Origin: Diphasiastrum complanatum
Lineage: Eukaryota; Streptophyta; Lycopodiopsida; Lycopodiales; Lycopodiaceae
Assembly (NCBI GenBank): GCA_029204225.1
Contig: CM055096.1
Coordinates: forward strand, 75,861,521-75,925,520
Reading direction: 5' to 3'
DNA length: 64,000 bases
Shown here: in pieces, positions 1,441 to 33,440 of the stretch
How the letters are laid out: each line of letters starts with the position of its first letter
Position numbering within the stretch: the first letter of the stretch is position 1
Notes under the pieces: model-generated
The model's input: the letters and a program-made list of their open reading frames with translations, nothing else
Told to the model about the DNA's origin: nothing
Database searches by the model: none
Position numbers and translations under genes: made by a program

Positions 1441-3110
1441 GTAATTATAATTAGTGAAGAGGCCCTTTTTGGAATGGGTGTTGTGCAATCAGAATTGAAC
1501 CAAGAATAAGGTCAATCTTGTGATCTATAGACCTTTTAGGTGGTAAACCTACAAGAAGGTCTAGAAAAACACCATTGAATTCTTGCCTAAGTTCACTATA
1601 GGCTTCAAATTCAAGAGTGTTCTCACTAGGTATGTTCATGGCATTATGTTTAAGAATCTTATCATTGCAACAAATTAAGTTTTTGTGAAAACATAGATAA
1701 AATTTATACTTTGTGTTCCTTATTAAAGAATTAAGCTCATGCTTAGAGTAAGGTTTAATTTTAGTAGCATCAACACTTAAACTAGCACTAATCTTTATTA
1801 AAGAACAATCATGAATATAAGTTAAAGATTTTTCAACAAAATCAATTTTCAAAGATTTATTCTTATCATAATGCCATTGTTGTCCAAGAACGACATCCAC
1901 ATTTGCCAAATTAATGGCATGGAATTCTAGTTTTTCAAAATAATCCTGTATGTGCAATGGTACATTAGGAACCACATAACCCATGGGTTTGGAATTACCT
2001 CAAGATGCCATTGTCACGAAGTACTTTTTCTCACTTTTTTTTATGGGAAGGTTTAGCATTTGCACCAAATTTGCATTTATAAAATTATGAGTGGATCCTG
2101 TGTCAAAAAGTACGTTAACAACATGTCCTCCAATTTTACCCTTAATGCAAATCAAGTCACTAGGTCCATAATGCATTGATCTAAGAAAACAAATATCCAT
2201 CTCATTACTTTGAGATATGATACTTGAAGTTAAGGCTTTGTTTTTTACACAATCTCGTGCAAGGTGACCCTCTCCATTGCACTTGAAGCAAAGATGATTC
2301 TTCCGAGCTTCCGCTAGATCCTTATTGCCACCTAAATGATTTTTAGGATGGTGTTTGGGTTTCCTAAAATTAGGATTGGAAGATGCCTCATTTTCCTTAT
2401 CCTTTCTTTTGTATTGAAAACCCTTCTTTTGTTCATTAGGGTGATAGCTCTTATGTGGCTTAGGAGTATCATCAAAAAGTTTGCAGCCCTAATAGCATCT
2501 TCTAGGGTGTTAGGATGGTTCCTTTTAACATCCACTTGATAGTCTTCAGGTAAAACATCAATAAGCATGAGCATCTATATCTTTGGAGGTATTTCACTAT
2601 AAAGAGGAGTAAAATACTCATGAAAATCTTGAATGAATTTGGAAATGTTCATAGTCATCTAGCAAGGGAAAAAAGTATTCCTTGAATACTAGACAAAATG
2701 TCTCCCATGTTAAGGGTTGTTTTTCTTTGGCTACTAAATCCTTCCACCAAACTAAGGCTTTTCCATCTAGAACCATAGTGGCGGTGGAGAGTTTTTCACG
2801 TTTAGAAAATATATTCACGGCAAAATATTACTTCCAACCATTAAGCCGTGAATTAACTACTTGTAGACTCCTCGCTTTCTTTTTTCCTTTAGAAACTTTA
2901 ACAAGAGGAGATACTACATGCTTTCAATGACTAAACAACTTAGATTCAAGGGCTTGATTCTTCAAATTAGTTTCATGAAGTTGTTGATTTGTTTCTTGGA
3001 CTTGTTGGTAGAGAATTTGTAGTGCTTGTGCCACACTATCAGGTTTAGATAAATCAAATGTAGGATTAGGGGTTGATTGATTCAAGGGAGTGTCTTGATC
3101 GTGATCCTAG
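1441..3110 (-). mobile_element. Ty3/Gypsy fossil, gag to start of RT
   Basis: Read on the minus strand the order is: a gag core near 2820-2600 (GKALVWWKDLVAKEKQPLTW), a CCHC zinc-knuckle region near 2280, a retroviral-type aspartic protease at about 2200-2000 (NVLFDTGSTHNFINANLV), and the linker into reverse transcriptase near 1600-1500 (LVGLPPKRSIDHKIDLILGS). The rest of pol and the LTRs are not seen. It is an old fossil, broken in several places. Confidence 0.85.
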
Positions 3111-3289
3111 TTTTCAAAGAAAGAAAGTAAGATTAGAAAAAGACAATGACATGCTCATTCCAAGATCTATATGATTAAATCCCAAAAAAAAGTTCAAAAA
3201 TGTTAGATGCAATCACATGAAAATGACTCAAAAATCATCCAAGTTTTCATTTACATGTTGGGTCCCTCTTTTAGTTTTATCTTTACTTC

Positions 3290-3780
3290 GGTGACTCCAG
3301 TGCATTATAGATTGGAGGCAAAGGATCTATACGCCTCTACCTTCCAAATGGTGAACTAACCTTGCTTAAGGATGTACTTTACGTACCCAAACTGACAAAG
3401 AATTTACTGTCAGTCAGCAGGCTCACTGATCAGGGCTGTAGGGCCTTGTTCAATTGAGAGAAGTTACCATATTGGACAAGAACTGTAAGGAAATCCTCTC
3501 AAAAAACAGAGAAGGTAATTTGTACATTTTGGATCATGAGTATACACTTAATACTAATGAGAGTACTTCAGATGCTGATTTATGGCATCAAATATTAGGA
3601 CATTTAAACATGCGATCTATCTTGTACATGCATCACAATTGTATGGTCAAAGACATGAATATTAATGTTGTCTCCATAGCAAATCAGAATGTCTGTGAAA
3701 TGTGCTTACTAGAGAAAGAACCTAGATCTTCTTTATCAAAAGTTACCACCCTTGATCATGCTATAAATAAACATATGTGA
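3290..3780 (+). mobile_element. Copia fossil, gag-pre-integrase region
   Basis: The stretch encodes a Copia gag-pre-integrase domain (phrases LWHQILGHLNMRS and CEMCLLEKEPRSS). The segment around 3600-3670 closely matches the sequence at about 13815-13885, so both come from the same Copia family. It is a broken fragment without LTRs. Confidence 0.75.
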
Positions 3781-5340: not shown

Positions 5341-8301
5341 TGAAGAGAGTGAGAAGCTCTCTCTTATCACACACCTCTAAGTGATCAAAGATTGACAATC
5401 TAGTAGTTGAGGTTGGAACACAAAAAACATCACATCATAGCCATGAAACATCTTCCAATTCTACTAATTCCCTTGATTACATCATTAAGACCATAAATAC
5501 CCCCAAAAAAATATAACATTGGAGGAATACCTCGTAAAGATGATAGACATGGGGCAAATAAAAAAGCTAGATGCTAATTTGACTAAAGGTTATCACATTA
5601 AATTCTTTCTAAATGCAGAGATACTCAAACGAAGACATTTGAGTCAAAATAGCTAAGTAGGTGGATGTATGTTCTTTAGATCCTAATTAGAATGCTATTT
5701 AGAAGTATACTACGCAATGGGAAGCCAAGGATTCACCTCTACACTTGAATGGCAGAGCGCGCGATCTAAACATTGGCAAAAGTGGCCCAAATGATGAGCA
5801 AGATAAATGACCAAGTATAGGTTAAACAATTTACCAATAATTCATATGGGATAATGTACATATTTTAATGATTGCAATTATAAGAAATTAAAAGTAGCTC
5901 CAATCAACAGAAATAAATATTGAACATAAAGTTTTAAAACTACAACAAAATATGTTGCCAAAGTACAAGTGTTGCATATACTAGACAAATATGAATGGAC
6001 TGAGGTTGTCATTCATAACGATAAGACAGAGTAGGATTTGAGGTAGTGGACTAATATTAATCGGTGAACTGGAAAACTTGTGATATGACTAAAAAAATTA
6101 CCACTAATGTTACAATAACACAACATCAAGAAGCTTACTTATTGGTATGAAGCACAAAGAACTAAAAAAAAGGTTTATACAAAAAAGGAGAGAAGAACCA
6201 AATCATTCATGATAAATAAGTACTCCATTATCTTTTAGGCATCAAAACTAGAAGTTACAAACGGATTTTGAACTACCTTGAATCCACCTATATAGTCAAC
6301 ATTGAAAAGGTTCGAAAGCTTTGCCTAAACAAACAAAAGAGTCTGACAAATTAGATCTTGAAGCCTCCCTTCCAAATATTGATGTCAACTATGGTAACAA
6401 AATTTGTAACAAAATTTAAAAAATGTATTTAGATCTATAAAAATGCAATCACTTTTCACTCTGACAATCAAAATCAAAGACATGAAAAGTGAATCTTCAA
6501 TAACCTAGCCTCCTCAAATTGCAACATGAATGCAAAGTCATCAACATCCTACAATAGGAAGTTAGACTATGCAATCAAACGTTTTAAACTTCCAATACTT
6601 GTGGACCAAAAGTCAAAAGAGAATGTTGGAAATTGAAACTACAATAGAACCTTAGAATCTTGAGCAAATTGCTTTGAAGAGGTAAAAAATGCCATTATCT
6701 TGAAAAATGTGAGATGCTTTTGCAATTTAAACTCCAACAAATAGGTGTTTTTCTCCCCACTTTAGGAGCTGAATCTTTGAAAGCATGTGATCTATGACGT
6801 GTAGCACACAGTAGGTCCTTCAAACAAAGATAAAGCCCTCTTTATAATACTTTCTCCCAATTCATAAAATAATATACATTTTTATTGGTCCTTTAATAAG
6901 GTTTGTGTTGCCCTATTGCATCTTGTCTATGCCTAGCATAGCAAAGACATTTGTCCTTCACTCTTTCTATAGTTTTGCAGCCAAAGCATATAAAAACAAA
7001 AAAGCATCTAAAATTGAAAATAACTAATTCATCTGATTCTAGCTTGTCAATCATTGCTAACATGATTGTATTACACACCTCAAATGAAGACACTTTCTCT
7101 TTACCTCTTATTGTGGTTCATTCAACGACAGCCTTTCAGATGGCTCCTGATTTTGATTTGGAACTCTTCTCATTTGGGCTTTACTACCAGAGTTTCTTTT
7201 AACCCTTTTTCAGATGTAAAATAAACTGACATAACAGTCTTATTCTCCCTTGAAAGTTCTTTATTACAAAGTTAAGAAAAACATACATTATATAGACGAC
7301 TGGACAAACTGTAAAATGATAAGGATTCTCCAACAAAAATATCGAGACAACAATAGGGTACCTGCAGGCACACTTCCACACGAATACTGTCTCTTAAGTT
7401 CTTCCTTGAAAAAGCTTGCTATATGAACAACGGTCAAGCAATAAAGGAAATGTGTTAGTTAATCCTCTGCTTTTGAAGAGAGGCATTGACCCCAATGATA
7501 TAGTTCAAGCGGCTAACTAGATCCTGTTTAGAAGACCCTTGTGCAAAACCCACAAAGCGGTATGAAGGTGCTTCTATTACCAAAACCCACAAAGAGGTAT
7601 CAAGGTGCTTATATTCTTAGACTTGAAAAACACTTTGCGACATTGTCTGCTATAGTTCAAGCAGCTAACTAGATTACAGACGAATTGGCTTCACCGTCAT
7701 AAAACCGGTGGTTCTATGTACTTTTCTAATTTCAAAAGTGCTCCTATCATTCTGGTGATACAATGGAGCAAAGGAGAATAGGGAGCAGCAGAACTTCCAA
7801 CAGCAACAATATTTTTTCACTCATGCTTTCCATACTTTTAGAGGTTGAAAACAATTGAGTAAACAGATTCAGCATTTTTTGAAGTCTGACTTTGCCTCTT
7901 ACAACCTGCCACAATATCCATAGACACAATAATAGCGCTCTGCTCGTGGAGAGCTGTGAGGTAGTTTAATTACATTTTACAAAGGCCATCAATTAGATGC
8001 TACTGCAAAATAAAGCAAAGATTCTTTGACCATCAAGGCTCCAATATGCTGCAAACTACCAAGTAAGCTGAATTGCCCGTATTCATAGCTGAATTGCCCG
8101 TAATCATGACTTCCAGGATAATTTCACTACCAACAAATTGCCAATGGTGGTAGCACAAAATTTGTGGAAGAAAAATCTGATTAAGCATATAAACCGCCTC
8201 TGAATTGTGTAGCTACCAAGACAGCATTGCTTACCTGCAAATCTGTAAAAGACCATACTTGACTGAAGAATAGCAATGGATCCCCTGTGCAATATTGTGA
8301 A
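5341..8301. other. No recognisable gene
   Basis: AT-rich DNA with only short chance frames. Small local duplications are visible: a 20-base phrase beginning TAGTTCAAGC at 7501 and again near 7653, AAAACCCACAAAG near 7546 and 7580, and a 22-base tandem beginning CTGAATTGCCCGT at about 8070 and 8092. The last few hundred bases are expected to hold the 3' untranslated region and terminator of the minus-strand PPR gene. No poly(A) site can be fixed. Confidence 0.6.
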
Positions 8302-22100: not shown

Positions 22101-22599
22101 TGTTGAATTTTCTACATTGGCAAGATTGGTGAGTTGCTTGTTTTTCTAACCAAAGCCAAGTTTGGCCTAGATAGAACTCGAGCTACATGGATATGTCATA
22201 TCTAGAATGATGAGTACCACTTGCATATAGTTTGTAGAACACGATGACATTTGTTTTGGGACTTTGACTTGAAAAAGAGTAATTTTGTTTGGTGTTTTTT
22301 AATGGTCCTAGTTTTAGGCCAAAATCATGGATTTTTTTAATAAATCTCTAAATTTTGTTTTTAAAAAAAGCCAAAAAATACATATTTTAAATAAAGAACT
22401 ACAAGTTTTTTGTTGCAAACTTCATAAAATCATCATATTAAAAAAGAAATAATAATTCAAGAGAACAAATGATTTTTGAAACTCGAAATCTCATTGAAAT
22501 ACAAAATAACTTAAATTATATTTGCACATTCTTTTTTTTTAAAGTACATTTTCTAAGGAATTTTCACTGATGCCTCTCAATTCAGACCTTGACATATTC
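22101..22599. other. AT-rich spacer
   Basis: No gene is seen. From about 22300 the DNA becomes very AT-rich. This composition continues, with short exceptions, to about 30700. Confidence 0.6.
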
Positions 22600-25087
22600 T
22601 CAACACTCACGTTTTCAGTTGATGAAGTGGTTCTTCATCAGAGTCAACTGGCATGTCTTCCTCAAAATCCGCGTCTAATGTTGACAAAAAATCTTGTAAA
22701 TAAGCTTTTCTCTGTTGATGACGAGTGGACGATGATGGTTTTTCAAGTAATCCAAGTCATTCTTTCAATATGGATATTGTTAACTTTCGTAGATGATTGG
22801 TCATTGTTAATTCAAAATTAAATGCCAAAACATCTACATCCTGTAGATTCAAATCGTCGACTCTTGGTTGATTTTTTTGGCACTCTTTCTCTTGCCCTTT
22901 GGATCTACTTGCAACATTTCGAGTTCGTACCTTCCCAAAAAAGCATTCGTTGAAGTGGTGCGCAACAATGGACACATAGTACTTTTGTTTGATGGCTATT
23001 TTGCATAAAACCAGGTACTTTGGCAATCCAAAATGGATGTCCTTCATTGTTTTTTGAAGCTAGAAGTGCAACAAGGCTTCCAATTTGGATTTCATTCAAA
23101 TCACCGCGCCATTTCATTTTTGCAGCTTTTACACTTTGCCTATTCTTCCTTGAGCCCAAATGAATTTCACGTTCCTCACCTTGCACAAGCTGCAAGAAAT
23201 CATTATCTTGAGGAAGATCTGAAGGTTCGACAGTCATAGTTGATGTTCCTAATTTATGAGGCCAATGAAATTCATCAGTTGTTGATGTATTTTCGAGATT
23301 GAGCAAACTGATTTTTTGTTTCTCGAAAAAGTCCATCCACCAATGCTGATCAAACTCATCAAAAAAAATGATAAGCTGTTTGAATACTTGATTCCAAAAA
23401 ATTTGATGAGACAAATGGATCAATCTCACGATGTTTTCTTTGCGTCTTTTATTCTTCTAGTAAGGACTTCAAGGGAGACAACACCACAAGCTTAATTTGA
23501 GTCAATGGAATGTTAAGCAAAAATCGAACTCCTTCAAGAGGTAGCCACAAAACTAAATTTGAAAATAGTTTGCCCCATAATAATATAATGACTGATTTGT
23601 TACATTTGATTTTAAACTGGTGCTGAAAGCTAATATCATTAATATTAGCTACGCATCACTCTATTTCGTTGGATGCCTTAACATAATCATGAAAATCATA
23701 TGTGTGTCTGATTAATGACATGTTTGGCTTTGGCACATACGATTTCTCAACAATGCTTTGAAGCACTGGTAATAAAAATGCTTTCTTGCGTCTCAACCTC
23801 TTAGAAAAGCAACTAAACATTTGATCAATTTGATTGTGGGTATGTCCTACCAACAAAAATCCTATTTTTACTTTTTTGAAAAAAAAATTTCTCCACTAGC
23901 ATAGACAATTATGCCAAAACAGTTTGATTTTTATTTTTCCTAGCAGTGTTGTCAAGCTGCAAGTATTTTTGGAAGATTTTCACCAAATTTGCAAATTATC
24001 TTATGTACAATGGTGATTGTCAAATTTGGATCATTTTGAACATTGGGATAATTAAAAAAGACCTTGGACTCCAAAGTGCCATTAAACACAAGTGCTCCAA
24101 TGAGATGAACCTGAATAAAATCTCCTTCGTTCAAATTTTTGGACACTCTGACAAAATGAGGCAACATTGTCTTCTTTTGATCCATGCCATCAATAACAAG
24201 TCCCAGATATTTTTGTGGACATTCCAAACATTTCTTTCGATGCTTGGCCAACTTTTGTCTTTCAATTGTTTGTTGATCTCTGTGCAGTTGAAGAGCTTTT
24301 GTAGCATCCACTGAAACACAATGATTCACTTATTTAATAAAATAAAGATCATACCATAATGGTGTTCAAAAAGACTGCAACATAATGGTGTTCAAAAAGA
24401 CTGCAACATAATTTTTTTCAAAATAGAAAGTATTAAAATGAATGATTTATTTGATTAATATTTACTTTTCTCGTCATTGGTCTTTGCAAGTTGTTTTGCA
24501 GACTTTAACAACTCGCAAGTGGAGCATATTGTCATTCGTGATTTTTTGAGAATCTTTACCAGTCCAAAATCTCTTTTTCAAATTCTAAGAAAATATGAGT
24601 AACTCAAATAGGAAACATTTTTTGTTTTTGCAAACTCTTTGTACATAAAAAATATTTCTAATTTTGTAAAATTATCCGGCAAGTGAAAATATAAGAAATT
24701 AGGCAATTTGTCTCCGTGCACATCTATGAAATACTTTAGCCAAGCAGTTGTATTGAAAGCATCTGGAGAAACAGTTCGACCTTGTAAGGATCCCTGTAAT
24801 GTTGGGTCTTTCTGAAGTCGTGCATGCATTCGTTGAAACTGTGAGTTTCCGATTGCGTGAACTGCTTTGTAAGCTTTGTGACAAACCTCCAAAGCATTTA
24901 AAAAATACGAAAATGAACTTTTGTCCAGTCTCATTATTGTACACAGATAGTAATTTCTCTCATCCTTACTTCGTAAAAAAACGTTTGATCTTAATTCTTC
25001 AATTTCTCTGATATTCAGCTTGTGCAAACAATAGGATAAGCAGCAAATAATATTCCGTACCTTTCGAATATCAGATTTTGTAATCAA
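22600..25087 (-). pseudogene. DUF7869-type DDE transposase, decayed
   Basis: The minus strand carries, in order: an N-terminal region (EVCHKAYKAVHAIGNSQFQR), YLGLVIDGMDQKKTMLPHF with a first acidic residue, a stretch around 23950-23890 with a LDNTAR-type second acidic site, then GFLLVGHTHNQIDQMFSCF and a C-terminal SH3-like part (GSLVALLASKNNEGHPFWIAKV). This order is the hallmark of proteins annotated DUF7869, which I regard as cut-and-paste transposases with a DDD/E centre. An intron is evident at 24311-24465 (GTAAAT to TTTCAG on the minus strand). The reading is interrupted in at least three places, so the gene is dead as it stands. No terminal inverted repeats could be fixed. Confidence 0.65.
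24355..24406. repeat. 26-bp perfect tandem duplication
   Basis: The unit beginning CATAATGGTGTTCAAAAAG occurs twice in direct tandem inside the transposase intron. It duplicates the tail end of an intron-like segment. Confidence 0.9.
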
Positions 25088-25303
25088 CTATTTTTGACGA
25101 TTTGTTTAACACCACAGTAAATGTGCTCCTCAAACATAACTGCAACCTATGTTGTCATAGAACAAATAAAACCTAAGCGAACCTCAATAGACGTACATAG
25201 AAAAACCAACTAAATGCAAATGAGCAACAAGCCTAAAAAGTAACTGGTTCATAAAAATTTTCGGTGGCTACCATGCCTTAACAACTGTTTGGCAGCATTC
25301 TTC

Positions 25304-25350
25304 GGGTTAGGGTTAGGGTTAGGTTTAGGGTTAGAGTTAGGGTTAGGTTT
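25304..25350. repeat. Interstitial telomere-like repeat
   Basis: Seven consecutive variants of TTAGGG/TTTAGGG (GGGTTAGGGTTAGGGTTAGG and on). Plant telomeres are TTTAGGG. The tract lies between the divergent transposase and methyltransferase genes and may be a scar of repair or a telo-box-like promoter element. Confidence 0.8.
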
Positions 25351-25379
25351 GGACTGTCCGGGCTAATAGTCAAGGTCGG

Positions 25380-25604
25380 CGTGGGGTGAGGTGAGTCGCG
25401 ACAACTTGGTCCCGAAGTAAGCTGGAGGACTGGCGTGAGACGGGGGTCTCAAAAAAAAATCTATTTAAGGACCATAGTCCTTGCAAGCATAACTCACCTC
25501 ATTTGCGAATTCAGAGGCCCACATGCTGCCAGAGCAATCGCTACGACCAAGTCACGGCTTTTGATAAGATTTTGCATACATTCTCGCTTCCAGATTTCTT
25601 GACG
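25380..25604 (+). promoter_or_regulatory. Candidate promoter and 5' exon of the ParB-MTase gene
   Basis: A GC-richer patch (25370-25450) is followed by a TATA box TATTTAAG at 25462-25469, then about 135 bases ending in a good donor site ACG|GTAAGA (intron from 25605). The DNA between has no long open frame and would be an untranslated first exon. The palindrome array then lies in the first intron. Arrangement inferred from signals only. Confidence 0.4.
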
Positions 25605-25633
25605 GTAAGATTATTATCATTTTCTAGCTTTGC

Positions 25634-26170
25634 TACATGCTTAGCATGGGTAATAAATTCTTGCATTAGAAAATATTCATATTTTAATTTGTATTCATCT
25701 TCTTGCAACATGGGTAACCTATGCTCAACATAGGTGCCTGCACCAGTCCTCTCCTTTAACCTATGCTGAGCATAGGTTGTGCTCGGGTCCTTAGTAATAT
25801 CCTATGCTCAACATAGGATTCCGATGTTATTTCTTTATTCTTAGCACGGTTCGACCTATGCTGAGCATAGGTTGCATCTCCAGTCCTCTTCCAACCTATG
25901 TTTAGCATAGATTAGCAAGCAAATAGTGAAGACATCCTATGCTTAGCATTGGTTGGACAAGAGCGCGCGAGTAACGACCTATGCTGAGCATAGGATGTCT
26001 TCGCAATTTGCTTGCTAACCTATGTTGAGCATAGATTGGAACAGGACCAGAGATGAAAGCTATGCTCAGCATAGGTCGAAAGGAGGTTAGAATTGAAGAA
26101 TTCCGCCTCCGTCCTATGTTAAGCATAAGTTGTTAGTAAGGACTCGACCACAACCTATGCTTAGCATAGG
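25634..26170. repeat. Array of 17-bp palindromes forming a 411-bp inverted repeat
   Basis: Consensus CCTATGCTNAGCATAGG. Copies start at 25718, 25760, 25801, 25855, 25895, 25936, 25978, 26019, 26059, 26113 and 26154, with a degenerate copy at 25634. Spacing is 40-42 bases except two steps of 54. From 25760 to 26170 the whole array is symmetrical about 25965. Spacer lengths mirror exactly (24, 37, 23, 24, 25 at the centre, 24, 23, 37, 24), and opposing spacers are reverse complements at 22/24, 19/23, 19/24 and about 20/37 positions. The region can thus form one long hairpin whose arms contain five smaller hairpins each. It lies upstream of the ParB-MTase coding exons. Confidence 0.93.
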
Positions 26171-26477
26171 TCGCTACTCATATTTTCTTGTTTTACAACG
26201 CTTTGTCTCAAAAAAGTGATTCTTTTGAAATGTTTTGTAAGAAAATATGTTGAATTTGTAGTTTTGTTTTTTAATTTTTTTTTTACAAAAATGGCTTGTT
26301 TTATTAAAGTTTTCAGCATTTTCATTAAGATAGCGTTTTAAATTTTTTCTAAAAAGTTTTTTTTTTTTTTTTTTTTGAGATTTTCGATTGTCTTTGATAA
26401 TTTTTGACATGTTGAGGATTTCTTTTAAAATTTTGGGAAAATATCAAGATATTTCGTTAAAAAATAAGATAAAATTC

Positions 26478-29400
26478 ATGTACTATTTCACCAAAGGGGT
26501 CAACAACACAAAGATTTCGGAGCTTTCTATTTATTTAGCTGAGAAGCCTGGCAAAGGAGACTCACAATTCAAAGTTCAAGGAAGATTGCTTGTTAATCAA
26601 CCAGATGAGTATCAAGAAGAAGGTTTTGTGAATATACTTGTAAAGGAGACAGATAAGTCTCGTTCTATTTTCATTCTGAACGAGACTATGATAAAGATCC
26701 GACTTTGTCAGGACGAGGCCATCAAAGCCTATTTTGATAAAGTTCTAGTTACTTTGGTGAGTAATTATAAAATATATTTTTAATCATGTCTGCTTCATGC
26801 TTAGTATAGTTGTTATTAGATATAAAATTATTTAAACTTTTAGTGATTATATTTTAAACTTGATTTTTGTTTCTGTCTAGAGCATGAAGCAATGCTTAAA
26901 AATGGTTTTAGCTGTTATTGCTGAGAAAAAAGATCCGGTCTATTCATTACGGAGTTCAAAAGGTGTATATATTGGACCTCGCAGGCCCACTTCTACTATT
27001 GCTCAGGTCACAAAGCTGGCCTCTAAAAATGTTGAGGATGAAACCGTAGCCGTCCCTCATCCCAAAAAAAAAAGATCTCATAATATTTCTGAGACTTCAC
27101 CCACTAGACCTAAGTCACGCCCAAAGGCCATGGCTACACATCGCCATAAGTCCATTCCTTCTGCTGAAAGCAAAAAAGCCGCCACCGAACCATCTTTGTC
27201 GCTACCTGGTGCATCCATCCGCCCATTACAAGACAGCTCCGAACTTGCCAAATTAAGAGAGGATATCCATAAAACAAAAAAATAAAAATAACAACTTTAA
27301 TTTTAGACATAAATCAGTGTGATAGGCCACCTGTAGACCCGATAACAGGAGACAAGCCAATGAAAGTTAGAGAGCCTAATGAAACACATGTACATAATTT
27401 GAAAATAAAATTTAAAGATCATACACAGGCCATAGTTACTCCTTTTGTTGTTTTGGTTGATCCCAACGAATGTAATGATGTTGCAAATTTTGATTTTTCT
27501 TTATTAGATTCACATCATTTTTTTGTTCTTGGGGAGATACACAATTTACAAGCTTGAAAACAATTATCTCAAGAGTATCCCCATATCCCAAGCTTTCGAA
27601 CTATGAGTGTCATTGCATTTGCTGGTCCAACAGTGGAAGAAACGAAATTATTGGCTTGGGACCACAATATTGATCAGGACTACCGGATGAATATGACCGT
27701 GATACAAAGAATTCGTTTTTTTTACAAAGAATACATGAGAGTCTCCAAATAAGGAGATGTGAATCAACTTGAGTTGAAAGCACTATGTGCTCAAGAGACA
27801 TGCTTGTCTTTTGATTCGAAAAATCCTACGCAGAGCCTTATTAAATACGATAATTTTTTTCAGCTTGCTTTTCGCAGTGGCCAGGTAATTTGTTTGACTA
27901 TACTCATCATGGAATGCACTAGTCATAATATATGTTATAATCTTTTTAAATTGTTTTTATCAGACTAAAATTTTGAGCTCAATTTTAATATTGGTTAAAT
28001 TCTTTATCAATTAATTTTTTTTTTAAAAATTTTAGGTGAGGGCCCTTGTTAATAAAATTTTTGATAAGTGAGAAACTTTTCAAATAAAAGGCCAACCTGT
28101 TCAGGGTGCCTCAAAGTCCAAAAAAAAAATTGTGAGCACTCAAACTTTGAAGCCAATCCCTACTGAAATGGGAATATCAGAGTGGAAGAATATGCAAGGG
28201 ATTAGTTCTTCAGAACTAATAATAAGTATTCTTTCAAGAGTTGCCGATGGTCAACTTTCCTTGGCAGAAATGAGAAAAGAATTTCAGAGGTAATAATCAT
28301 AATTTAAATATTTATTTTCATATTACCTTTTTTAATAAAATGATTTTCATAATTTAGTTGGACTTTTAACAATTATATTTTTTTAATGCAGGCACAAATT
28401 ATTTATGAAAGTTCAAGAAGCCCTTGTGACAGGGTAAAATTGTCAAGATTTCGATGAGTGCCAGAAGCTTTATCCTCTGAGCAGCTGAAATGAAGCCCCG
28501 AGTCCATTTCTTATTTTGTTTAGAGACATGATATTTATTTCACCCATGCTTAGCATAGGTGCTTATTGATTGTTTCTTTTCTATATTCTATATCTCCTAT
28601 GCTAAGCATAGTTTTTTTTTTATTTAATTATTATTATTTTGATAAGTTAAGTCTCCTATTCTACTTTATATTTTTTGTCTCCCATGCTAAGCATAGCTTT
28701 TTCCTTTTCAGTCTCCCGAAGACAAAAAAACAAAGTCCTTCTAGAGCAATTCAAGAGACATATTTTGAAGGCAAAAGAAGAAAAAAGAGACAAGGAGAGA
28801 TTGGCACGGGGTAAGACCATTGCGGAGGAGGATCCATTAGAGACCTACCTTCCCAAAAGCGTCGTTGATCAACCATGCTTTTACTCTGATGAGGAGGACG
28901 ATTGTAGAAAAATTTCAATTTTTTTAAGAAAATGGCCTTATACACTCTGCATCGCCAATATACTATATGGATTTCAGATGAAAGAATCATTAAATGATGA
29001 TACTCCTTTCAAATTCACTAAAATCCATAGTTTCATGCAGGGCTTTCTTGAAGTCACAACTTCTCTAATTTGGAGAGTTGTTATTTTTCATTCTTCTTGG
29101 CAGTCAGTATCAATACAGAAAGTTCTACTAACTTTCTGTAATACGAGAATTGAGAATGCTATGTGGTAAGTTTTTAAGTTCCTAAATTATCAATTTGTAT
29201 TTTGATTCATAATTTTATTTTGAATTTTTTATTTTAAAATTAAAATTTTAAATTGATTTTACTTGTAATGTTCCATGTCAGGTATAAGCCCAATGTCAAG
29301 AATTCGGGAGGAGCTCGACTTTGCAATGAAATAGAATACATAACCATCGGTTATTATTCTTTGGATGACAAACACTCGATGCTTTATTATAACACTTCCG

Positions 29401-29903
29401 GACTGACAAGTTTTGGAAACTTGTTCCAGTATCTAACTGTCACAAAGAAATTAAAAAATCCAATGACGGGTTCTGCGGCTTGTCCCTACCAAAAGCCACA
29501 ACAATTAATTAATCATTTAATTGATATTTTTTCTCACCCAGCTGATTGGGTTTTAGATTTATTTAGCGGTAGCGACACTACGAGCGCATGTGCTGTTAAA
29601 AAAAACAGACATGTTGTTGTAGTAGATTTAGATTTTAATTTAGTTGATTTTGTAAAAATGAGAATGAATCTCTTTCAATTTTGCCAGATGAATGATCTGA
29701 TGTGGGAAAGAGTTTGGATAGCGAGGATACAATAATTCCCTTGGCAAGCTCCTGCAAGAGGAAAAGTAGGTGACATAGGAGAATTTGCTGATGTCTTGGT
29801 TCAAGATTACAATGTAGTAATTGTAGTCGAGGAAATTGTAGAAGAGGTGCCACTTGATAGTATAGTGGCTACTCAAGAAGAAAAAAAAAAAAGATGTAAA
29901 TGA
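26478..29903 (+). pseudogene. ParB-like domain fused to beta-class amino-methyltransferase, decayed
   Basis: Coding exons separated by small introns are visible. Clear splice pairs give introns at 26757-26880, 27885-28035, 28290-28391 and 29166-29281, and an acceptor lies at 28710-28711. The N-terminal exon starts at ATG 26478 (YYFTKGVNNTKIS). Next is a basic, Ser/Pro/Lys-rich linker. From about 27300 a ParB/sulfiredoxin-type domain follows (TPFVVLVDPNEC, FSLLDSHHFFVLGEIHNLQA, then LLAWDHNIDQDYR). The last exons encode an N4-cytosine/N6-adenine methyltransferase. A motif IV region (CIANILYGF where DPPYGF is expected) precedes KPQQLINHLIDIFS and motif I (DWVLDLFSGSDTT, usually GSGTT), i.e. the beta-class order. 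An acidic tail ends near 29903. Several stops and at least one frame change interrupt the frame, and both catalytic motifs are degraded, so the enzyme is presumably inactive. ParB-methyltransferase fusions are known from phages and bacteria. A host or transposon role here is unknown. Confidence 0.7.
28543..28697. repeat. Three further copies of the 17-bp palindrome
   Basis: Copies CCCATGCTTAGCATAGG at 28543, CCTATGCTAAGCATAGT at 28596 and CCCATGCTAAGCATAGC at 28681 lie in a probable intron of the methyltransferase gene. The last one sits just before the acceptor's pyrimidine tract. A degenerate copy is at about 26794, inside the 26757-26880 intron. Confidence 0.85.
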
Positions 29904-30731
29904 CATCAATAATTTTTGGGAATAAAAATTCTCTTTTGTTTTAAAGAATAATTGTGTTTATATTTTTTGATGTATTGTGTTATGAATTTCTTTTTATTGA
30001 TTTAATATTTTTAAATTTATTTTTTAAAGATTTAAAATATAAAATTTGAAATATTCTAAAAAATTTAACATTGATAATTATTACCAAAATTTAAAATTGT
30101 AATGATTTGTCAAGTTTACAACATTTTAATTTTAGATGTGTTTTTATAGTATTTTTCTATAAAAAAAATATTGTTAAAAATTATAAGAAATGAAAAAAAA
30201 AATTAGATTTTTTTCAAGGTGATTTAAATATTATCACAAATAATTTAATCTCGATTATTGTAAAGTAATTTTATTTGCATTTATTTAATGTTTAAATATT
30301 TAATAAACTTACGTGGGTGTAAGTAAAGATTTTCAAAATTTTAAAATTTTAAAAAATATTGATTCAAATTTCTAACATAATTTAAAAAATATTTTTTTTT
30401 GATACAAGAATTGTAATTTAGAAAACTTTTAAAATTCCAAAAAAAAAAAACTATACCTTTTGTTTTTAGTAAGCAAAAAATATTTTTTAGGTATTTTAGT
30501 GGTTGTGTATTTAATGATTTTATTTTAAATAGTATTATTATTTAATATAAGCTAAAAAATCTATTGACCAAATTTTTGTAGCTTAAATTATTTTCTTGCA
30601 AAATACAACATTTTTTTACCATTACAATATATTTATTTGAAGCATTTTAAATTTGGATACTTTTTAAAAAAAATTAATAAATTTAAAAAAATGGGTCTTC
30701 AAGTCATTTCTCTTTTTTTTTGTCATCATGT
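29904..30731. other. Extremely AT-rich spacer
   Basis: No gene is seen. Roughly four bases in five are A or T, with many A and T runs. It ends abruptly at the LTR of the following Copia element. Confidence 0.7.
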
Positions 30732-33440
30732 TGTAGACATTGAAATAGCAAAATTATGCTTGTAGAAACTCGTGGCAATTCACATGCATTCATTGTAAGT
30801 GATCCATAGTGACATGCAAGACATGCACAAAGTGTAATGGACACATGCATGATGATTTGTACATTTCTAGTTAAAACTAGCACACTTGGAAAAAGTTGGT
30901 AGAGTTTCGTGCATGAGAAGTGACAAATGCCACATAAACTCTAGTTTTCACTTTAGATGTCATTAAATGATGGATGGATGTGGTTCTACCTTGAGCTACC
31001 TCAAACTCCATAAATATGTGTAACTCTCCTCATATTTTGTGATGAAGAACCAAAGCTTTGTAGCTATCTCATACCATTTTGGATCCACACATTTTTTATT
31101 TCTTATCTCTCTATCTTTCTCTCTCTAACTCGTGTTGAGGCTAATGCTAATACACTGATATCTTGTATTTTTGCTCATTATTGATTCATTGCTGTCATAT
31201 TCTGATGCTTAGCATGCTAGATTGTGGTTAAGCCATATCTTCTAAACTAGATCTTGTTAATCAATCTAGAATCAGTTATTGTGCTAATCACAAAGCTTAA
31301 TTAGATCCATCATACTTGTGGACATTCCTCACACGTGTGAATTCTAGAAATTTTGTCATGGTATTAGAGCCAAATTGAGCTTTGCATGCTAACATCTTTG
31401 ATTGTACAAAGAAATTGAGAGCTAATTCAAGCAAAAAAGCAGTTTTGCATTCTCACCTTTCTCTAAAGTGTATTTGGATCAAAGCAGATTGGAACTGAAT
31501 TTTTAGACCTGAATAGTGGTAGTACAGAATTCTGGAATTCCACACGTGTGAAAATCAGAGATTTTCAGTCCATTCTATCTCCTTGCTTGTAGATCCTGAA
31601 ATAGTGGTGTTATAGCTTGACGGAAAGCTTATGATCTGTACTTTCCATAGAAAATCAATCTGATGTGTCTATCAAGAGTTATAAGCTCTTAAAGAGGATA
31701 GGGATAGGTCCAAAATCTGAGTGATAGCATTTTGATTTGATTCAACCTTGCTTTGTTCTGAATCCATTGTTTTGAGCATCCTACACAAGAAACTGAGGAT
31801 CAAAACCAAGTTTGAAGTAATTGAACACCCTTTGAGCCTTCTGAGTGTCAATAGTATTTTCTTTTAAAGCATTTCACACGTGCCAAAAGTAGGATTCAAA
31901 CTAGCCAAAGTGTATCAATCCAGTTTGTGTGTCTGATCTAGATAACTTGTCTTGTAGAATATTTGAGATCCATCTCAAATACAATTGCAAGTGTTTCACA
32001 TAGGAATGTAGTACATCCTTGAAAATACTTATAGTGAAAGAGAGCAGCAACTTTTAAGTCTGATTGGAACAAGCTCAAACATATTGCAGTCCAATAACTA
32101 AGAAGTCTTCATCTAAATGGCACCTCTGGGAGGATATCTTCTAGAAGCAAATGAAAGACTAAATACTTCTAATTATTCAATTTGGAAGTTCAGAATGGAG
32201 TCTATTTTGATACTCCATGATGTTATGGACATTGTGCTTGGTGTTGAGGAGCCGCCTCAAGCACAGGCTGAAATTCCTAAGTATAGGAAGAGAGCTAGAA
32301 TGGCTCTACATTTCATTAAGATGAATGTATCTAATGAAATTCTGAGAGAGATAGGATCTTGCACTACAGCCAAAGAAGCTTGGGATGCACTTAAGTCCAT
32401 CTATAAAGCAAAGAATACTTCTAGAATACTCACTCTTAGGAATCAGATTTTCCAAAGTTTTCAAAGAAGTGAAGAGAGTGCATCAAACTATGTTCTGAGA
32501 GTTAAAGATTTACATAGAGAGCTTTCTTGTTGGTGTTACTATTAACCAAAATGAGCTAGTTCAAGTCATTTTAAATGGCTTGAGAGATGACTATGATAAT
32601 CTTGTTCAGTCTTTTGCCATTAAGGAGGAGTTGCCTAATCTAGAAACTCTCCAAGGAATTCTTATTTCTGAAGAATCTAGGCAAAGCTATAAACTTTCCA
32701 AGATGAACAAACTCGAGCATGGCGGAAGAAACAAAGCCCTCTTTGTCAAAGACAAGCATAAAGGAAGGAGTAAGAACCAGTTCTCTCAAGCATCCAACAA
32801 AGACAAAACCAAAGATCGAGACAAAGATGGTGAAGAGGATGATTCATCTCATCTTTCTATTTCAAAGACCAAGAAGAAAAAAGTGAAGTGTTTCTTCTGT
32901 GGCAAGAAGTGGCACTATGCCTCTAATTGCTTTAAGAAGAAAAACCAACTCAAGCAAGCTAATCTCTCCAAAGAGATTGAAGAAGATTCTGTTGCAGGTG
33001 ATGGAGAAGGATTACTTATGGTGTCCAGTGTTTCTTCATCACCTTTCAAGAAAGATGGAGCTTGGTACATAAATAGTGGAGCTTCTTCACATATGCACTG
33101 TTCAAAAGAGTCTTTTGACTCAATTGTATCTTACAAAGGACTTAAGAGATCTATTTACACTGCTAATGATGATGAGTGCTCTATAGAAGGAATTGACAAC
33201 ATTTCATTGAAACTTGCTTCTTCAAAAGTTCTGCACTTTCTAATGTTCTTTTCATTCCAAAACTTACAAAGAACTTGATTAGTGTGGGAAAGTTGCTTGA
33301 TAATGGTTGTGATGTAAATCACCTTTTGAAGTCTTGTTTAAGAAAAAACCTAAGGTAAATCACCTTAGAGTTTTTGGTTGTGCTTGTTTTGTTCATGTGC
33401 CCTTGGAAACAAGGAAAAAAGATGATCCTAAGAATTTGTG
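30732..33440 (+). mobile_element. Copia element, 5' half with LTR
   Basis: A probable 5' LTR runs from about 30732 (TGTAGACATTG) to 31358 (TTTTGTCA) and is followed at once by the primer-binding site TGGTATTAGAGCC, complementary to initiator methionine tRNA. An untranslated leader of about 750 bases precedes gag (from 32117; NTSNYSIWKFRMESILILHD). Next come a Lys-rich region with zinc knuckle (CFFCGKKWHYASNC) and protease (AWYINSGASSHMH). After this only a scrap of the integrase C-terminal side (NHLRVFGCACFVHVPLE) is left. No 3' LTR is seen. Broken, but gag is comparatively well kept. Confidence 0.85.

Follow-up and report, generated by a model that had tools for sequence, protein, structure and literature searches.

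Palindrome array inside a two-gene DNA transposon

We examined a 64,000-nucleotide stretch of Diphasiastrum complanatum DNA (hereafter the window) and found that its array of 17-bp palindromes sits inside an 8,495-bp DNA transposon (22238-30732). As read from the sequence, the array occupies the intergenic region between two divergent genes, one encoding a transposase-like DUF7869 protein (minus strand) and the other ending in an N6_N4 DNA methyltransferase (plus strand). Element ends were placed by comparison with other copies, and exons by open frames and homology. The features are listed below.

22234..22237, no strand: left 4-bp target-site duplication GTAG, repeated at 30733-30736
22238..22249, plus: left terminal inverted repeat AACACGATGACA, a left end common to other copies
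22607..25087, minus: remains of the DUF7869 (transposase-like) gene, with PF25273 matches; frame broken, inferred first exon deleted
25304..25349, no strand: tract of telomere-like TTAGGG/TTTAGGG repeats lying 5' of the DUF7869 gene, read directly
25634..25650, no strand: outermost copy of the motif, decayed, 84 bp beyond the one at 25718
25718..26170, no strand: array of eleven 17-bp palindromes CCTATGCTNAGCATAGG, from motif scan, masked spacer match and module decoding
25759..25953, plus: left arm of the large inverted repeat, modules b c d e, from arm alignment and masked spacer match
25954..25976, no strand: central spacer, module f, inverted in L012
25977..26171, minus: right arm of the large inverted repeat, modules e' d' c' b', from arm alignment and masked spacer match
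26409..27968, plus: first exons of the second gene (start unplaced), open pieces conserved in copies and in P0051 (32%)
26794..26810, no strand: decayed copy of the motif within what is inferred to be intron 1 of the second gene, from the core-motif scan
28072..28490, plus: middle exons of the second gene (approximate borders), open pieces in the window and in L015
28543..28697, no strand: three motif copies (28543, 28596 and 28681) at intervals of 53 and 85 bp, preceding the methyltransferase exons, with L015 counterparts
28708..29735, plus: N6_N4 DNA methyltransferase exons (PF01555, E=1.6e-13; joined exons, 7.3e-14)
30721..30732, minus: right terminal inverted repeat TGTCATCATGTT, the same right end in the 37 rows displayed
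30733..30736, no strand: right 4-bp target-site duplication GTAG, matching the left one

The terminal inverted repeats are 12 bp long with one mismatch between them. Exact 4-bp duplications flank six of the eight copies with both ends read (GTAG, AATA, ATAA, AACT, TTAA and TTTT), and the remaining two are inexact (L047, TGGA/TAGA, one mismatch; L015, TCTC/TTCT inside a TC repeat). For L051, a left end was found that could not be placed. All 37 right-end rows reach an identical last base, matches that ended earlier having been passed over. Some of these rows duplicate a single place, and flanks are common to several pairs, which leaves fewer than 37 independent rows. A first look at the 1.74-Gb genome returned 1,157 right-end, 1,398 left-end and 516 array candidates, numbers that serve as indications because 40 candidates were scored for each query. 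Three of the four copies picked by the right end alone (L046-L048) retain the array despite partial gene deletions, and the fourth (L049) shares the right end and contains no motif within 2 mismatches over 9.3 kb.

Foldback transposons carry long inverted repeats at the element ends, and the subterminal region of such an element was one reading offered by the initial annotation. A long inverted repeat does exist and does lie inside a transposon. However, it is interior (left end 3.5 kb away, right end 4.6 kb away), and the ends themselves are 12-bp repeats with 4-bp target duplications, boundaries that refute this reading and leave it a negligible probability.

Genes flanking the array

The DUF7869 gene is a remnant in the window. 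It matches PF25273 at 23656-23895 (E=1.9e-21) and 23952-24329 (E=6.1e-06), and ~700 bp including the inferred first exon are missing at 25106-25109 and present in L015. Pfam names the transposase-like domain only as DUF7869, a designation with no mention in the literature searched. The protein has three conserved aspartates, and its predicted model is integrase/mariner-like. Relatives of DUF7869 were found in Ceratopteris and Riccia, and a relative of the methyltransferase in Ceratopteris. Separately, a Foldseek search with the DUF7869 relatives (alignment A1, P0007 model) returned weak matches (E 0.13-0.19) to EBS, DNMT1 and polybromo BAH domain chains. The telomere-like tract 5' of this gene has a shorter form in L015, and on the DUF7869 gene strand it contains CCTAACCC repeats that we take to resemble plant telo-boxes.

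Within the first exons of the second gene, one segment resembles ParB by eye only. This suspected ParB domain is not supported by family or PDB-sequence searches: no ParB match was obtained in Pfam, PHROGs or PDB sequences, the best weak match being DUF6551 (E=0.023). The predicted model of P0051 (mean pLDDT 36.8) was set aside. The PF01555 match of the joined exons places the family among N6_N4 (beta-class) methyltransferases, and the window copy is mutated at both the catalytic and the SAM motifs. At the presumed catalytic motif, which we take to be ADIPYGF, this sequence is read in 12 of the 19 copies with a readable stretch, a further 7 loci giving no reading under the filter; on the SAM motif side, the relative P0001 reads FSGSGTT. 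P0002 matched phage methyltransferases in 128 records (26.6-32.3% among the eight displayed), and no phage relatives of P0051 were found. A search of solved structures gave weak matches only, which were not trusted. As an aside, P0005, a channel-like protein of D. complanatum, ends in a stretch resembling the element's methyltransferase, so a copy of the element was perhaps absorbed into a host gene model.

Eleven palindromes in a mirrored array

Ten regularly spaced 17-mers with an eleventh at 25718 had been described from the letters alone, and a motif scan recovered all 11 copies at 25718-26170 (≤2 mismatches). At ≤3 mismatches the whole window contains 16 matches, against 0.10 expected from shuffles. 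The steps between successive 17-mers (42, 41, 54, 40, 41, 42, 41, 40, 54 and 41) agree with the reported 40-42-base spacing with two 54-base steps. Additional copies beyond that list were located at 25634 (decayed), 26794, 28543, 28596 and 28681. The first of these differs from the 19-mer by 5 mismatches here, by 3 in nine of the ten relatives displayed and by 4 in L047.

The arms of the large inverted repeat are 195 nt each, separated by 23 nt, and are 80% complementary. Because the self-palindromy of the 17-mers inflates this value, we hid each 17-mer together with one flanking base; opposing spacers then matched at 73 of 100 positions (25.8 on average in letter shuffles, none of 20,000 reaching the observed value). 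The matches per spacer pair were 18/22, 18/35, 17/21 and 20/22, the weakest being the 35-base pair, which is absent from the pairs quoted in the initial annotation. The claim that the array mirrors itself with reverse-complementary opposing spacers is therefore borne out, as the match between the arms on which it hinged is present both before and after masking.

Mirror order and module reshuffling among copies

All 40 scored array places, which include the window and were chosen from the 516 candidates for their likeness to it, keep the mirror, with near full-length query matches (39 at 91-95%) and 40 opposite-strand rows at 76-80%. The module order z a b c d e f e' d' c' b' g was found in 17 of 26 decoded arrays, counting L062, in which one 17-mer is lost; module c' was assigned by position and length, its likeness falling below the cut in most arrays. 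The left arm differs in L047 and L048, the centre f is inverted in L012, and the arrays of L009, L014, L014b, L006, L007 and L011 are rearranged or cut. L014b reads z a b c d b c d b' g and does not have the full mirror order, while L014 has it only in part. The two family arrays at L014:4478-8640 lie within 4.2 kb, both on the minus strand, with unlike module orders.

More distant copies thus carry the same spacer modules inverted, duplicated or deleted, with joints often at a 17-mer. By eye, both joints in L012, three in L009, two in L014 and one in L006 fall at a 17-mer, and those of L014b fall within a few bases of one. Elsewhere, the tails of two modules in L014 are fused without an intervening 17-mer, one module in L009 is shortened, and the joint in L047/L048 falls in a half-motif. 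Since the mirror is kept in amplified copies but reshuffled in others, it belongs to the amplified subfamily, and more constant than the mirror are the motif and its approximate spacing.

Palindromes are recombinogenic, and the many joints at 17-mers would fit an array that is a neutral by-product, in which palindromes stall replication or recombine and modules are copied, flipped and lost without function. Yet the joints of L014, L009 and L047/L048 that fall within spacers argue against this account, which also leaves unexplained the isolated copies in noncoding stretches of the element and the recurrence of the same motif with other spacers in three further repeats (L005, L008 and L010). We therefore regard a by-product without function as unlikely. 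Among close copies, the mean pairwise difference was 0.061 in the motif, 0.083 in the spacers and 0.050 in the flank. That the motif is not markedly more conserved than the spacers is what young dead copies should show, and the case for selection on it is drawn mainly from the other repeats.

The 17-mer in other repeats

Across the 1.74-Gb genome, the 17-mer occurs at 5,717 places with ≤1 mismatch, compared to 0 for the reversed control. Nine of the first 12 exact-copy clusters on contig C1 belong to the window family, and three (L005, L008 and L010) are other repeats, in which the motif is kept, often at a 28-bp spacing, with no other BLAST-detectable similarity to the window element. Neither DUF7869 nor the methyltransferase was found near these arrays in the three 10-kb loci. 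In viral contigs, the motif was present in 5 stretches, at a single place in each, and no array was found. L005 is possibly a related nonautonomous element, with a carotenoid-dioxygenase-like ORF (RPE65) at 1866-3530. A different palindrome array lies at L005:4850-5490, between the RPE65 ORF and a TIR-like end, AACATGTTGACA. L010:1338-2465 (plus strand) is a core-histone ORF (PF00125, E=1.8e-22) with a long C-terminal extension, ~2 kb from a 17-mer array of another repeat.

The 13-bp core of the motif (≤2 mismatches) occurs 16 times in the window element against 0.54 expected from letter shuffles, and all 16 copies lie outside the exons as placed, with the copy at 28681 immediately preceding an inferred splice acceptor. 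Main-form neighbour spacings of 40-42, 53-54 and 84-85 bp are close to 4, 5 and 8 helical turns, although they derive from duplicated modules and hence are not independent; spacings of 30, 34, 36, 37, 39, 43, 47 or 48 also occur in some copies.

The 17-mers might alternatively be internal transposase sites, acting as an enhancer of transposition rather than of transcription, a possibility that partly overlaps the explanation we favor below. The aspartates and integrase/mariner-like model of the DUF7869 protein would suit such a role, as would the L005 array, which lies ~130 bp inside the TIR-like end. The window-family array, however, is 3.5-4.6 kb from the element ends with no motif copy near them, and L049 shares the right end without having an array, so we assign this role a low probability.

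Folding and decay of the array

The initial annotation had also proposed that the array could fold as a long hairpin. Physically it does so in prediction: the RNA fold of 25759-26171 is a single hairpin (-263.9 kcal/mol; z -24; none of 100 shuffles folding as well), and the DNA fold of the same region is likewise one long hairpin (z -20). The pairing is not maintained among copies, however. Two-sided pair-keeping changes were found in 4 cells (1 in each of four slid controls), whereas one-sided changes break a pair in 102 cells and make one in 14. Since pair-keeping double changes are this rare, a conserved hairpin is not supported, and some relatives are without the mirror order.

We then considered cytosine decay in 18 distinct copies. 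C-to-T (or G-to-A) changes affect 71/608 CG, 52/515 CHG and 74/3,315 CHH cytosines, all other changes amounting to 185/10,328 cells, such that CG and CHG cytosines decay ~five times faster than CHH. The most changed motif positions are 7 and 11, mainly by C>T and G>A. These two positions are changed in 21/126 cells in CHG context, which is set by the centre base, and in 10/250 outside it; given this CHG-context excess, we rejected loose binding specificity at positions 7 and 11 in favor of C-to-T decay. Such CG/CHG decay is what 5-methylcytosine usually leaves behind in silenced plant DNA, and the sequences suggest that the copies were methylated at CG and CHG.

This methylation-type decay, together with the predicted folds, would be compatible with a read-through RNA that folds into the long hairpin and is diced to small RNAs for self-silencing or as a decoy. 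Against this are the 102 pair-breaking and 4 pair-keeping cells, the loss of full mirror order in L014b and its partial state in L014, and the regularly spaced 17-bp palindromes, for which a hairpin has no need. We consider such a self-silencing or decoy role of the array improbable.

Discussion

The intergenic position, approximate helical phasing and noncoding distribution of the motif favor a multi-site region for a dimeric factor that is probably encoded by the element. We put at roughly 0.6 the probability that this DNA transposon has its regulatory core in the array between its two genes, where a regulator encoded by the element would bind many sites at a divergent promoter. Among the three ideas in the initial annotation, a multi-site protein-binding region is the best supported, by this position and by the recurrence of the motif in L005, L008 and L010, while binding itself is what we infer. 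Each 17-mer would most likely be the binding site of a symmetric protein dimer, and, with the 17-mers repeated roughly in helical phase, many such dimers would line up along the same side of the helix in the intergenic region, further copies lying in introns. The protein concerned, probably the product of the second gene or the transposase, may switch both genes together or keep host silencing off them. An inverted duplication of half the array would have made the large mirror, which presumably spread with the amplified subfamily, the 17-mers serving as frequent joints where modules were inverted, duplicated and lost. In a more specific version, which we view as rather doubtful, the product of the second gene would attach to the 17-mers and deposit N6-methyladenine or N4-methylcytosine at the divergent promoter, a modification that would either label the element as active or prevent CG/CHG silencing by the host.

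Multiple short sites in a regulatory region are familiar from other systems. TnpA of maize Spm/En, a CACTA element, is an element-encoded dimer with multiple short sites, the subterminal 12-mers, and the operators of phage lambda are 17-bp near-palindromes with an odd centre that serve as sites for a dimer. The array would resemble both in this respect, its own dimer being putative.

VANDALs are Mutator-like elements. The nearest studied analogue of the array, in our comparison, would be VANC, whose targets are described as short motifs repeated in noncoding parts of Arabidopsis VANDAL elements (PMC5735166, PMC10398659). As in that description, the window element is a DNA transposon in which a second gene is accompanied by a short motif repeated many times in noncoding regions, and its motif also occurs in unrelated repeats (AT9TSD1 for VANC6; L005/L008/L010 here) (PMC5735166). 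VANC motifs, in contrast, are 8-9 bp long, and the main text of PMC5735166 makes no mention of a palindrome, whereas the motifs here are 17-bp palindromes in a mirror. The window element further differs from VANDAL in its 12-bp TIRs, its 4-bp duplications and a second gene with a DNA methyltransferase, and these duplications are not the Mutator-type TSD of 7-12 bp described in PMC10741241. Nor does the element, which begins AACAC..., have the CACTA/CACTG ends and 3-bp TSD that the same source gives for CACTA/Spm (PMC10741241).

Sola elements are described as having a DDD-type transposase, 4-bp target duplications and TIRs of at least 11 bp, as being mostly 2-9 kb long and as present in a moss (PMC10741241, PMC3627910). 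The window element, compared by description only, shares the 4-bp duplications and TIRs of at least 11 bp (12 bp here) and encodes a candidate DDD-type transposase. Sola elements of Dictyostelium fasciculatum are reported with TIRs of 12-13 bp and, for Sola2, AWWT duplications, which the six exact duplications here do not fit (PMC3627910, PMC10741241). The methyltransferase gene and palindrome array of the window element are unmentioned for Sola in the accounts given by PMC10741241 and PMC3627910. In bdelloids, N4CMT is described as a bacterial-type N6_N4_Mtase (PF01555) in a eukaryote that is linked to transposons; there it is a host gene marking transposons, whereas here the PF01555 gene is carried by the transposon (PMC8885841). 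Within the literature searched, with most subscription journals outside its scope, we noticed no paper on this element, nor on a plant transposon with such a methyltransferase.

Together, our results tie a 17-bp palindrome that is widely repeated to a well-defined mobile element in early-diverging land plants, one with a candidate DDD-type transposase and a bacterial-type methyltransferase, and the 17-mer offers a ready probe. If the array does bind the element's own protein, it would be another non-Arabidopsis case of transposons addressing themselves by motif arrays. The methyltransferase raises the testable question of whether some plant transposons write 6mA or 4mC and, if it is indeed guided to the array, it would leave a self-addressed epigenetic mark.
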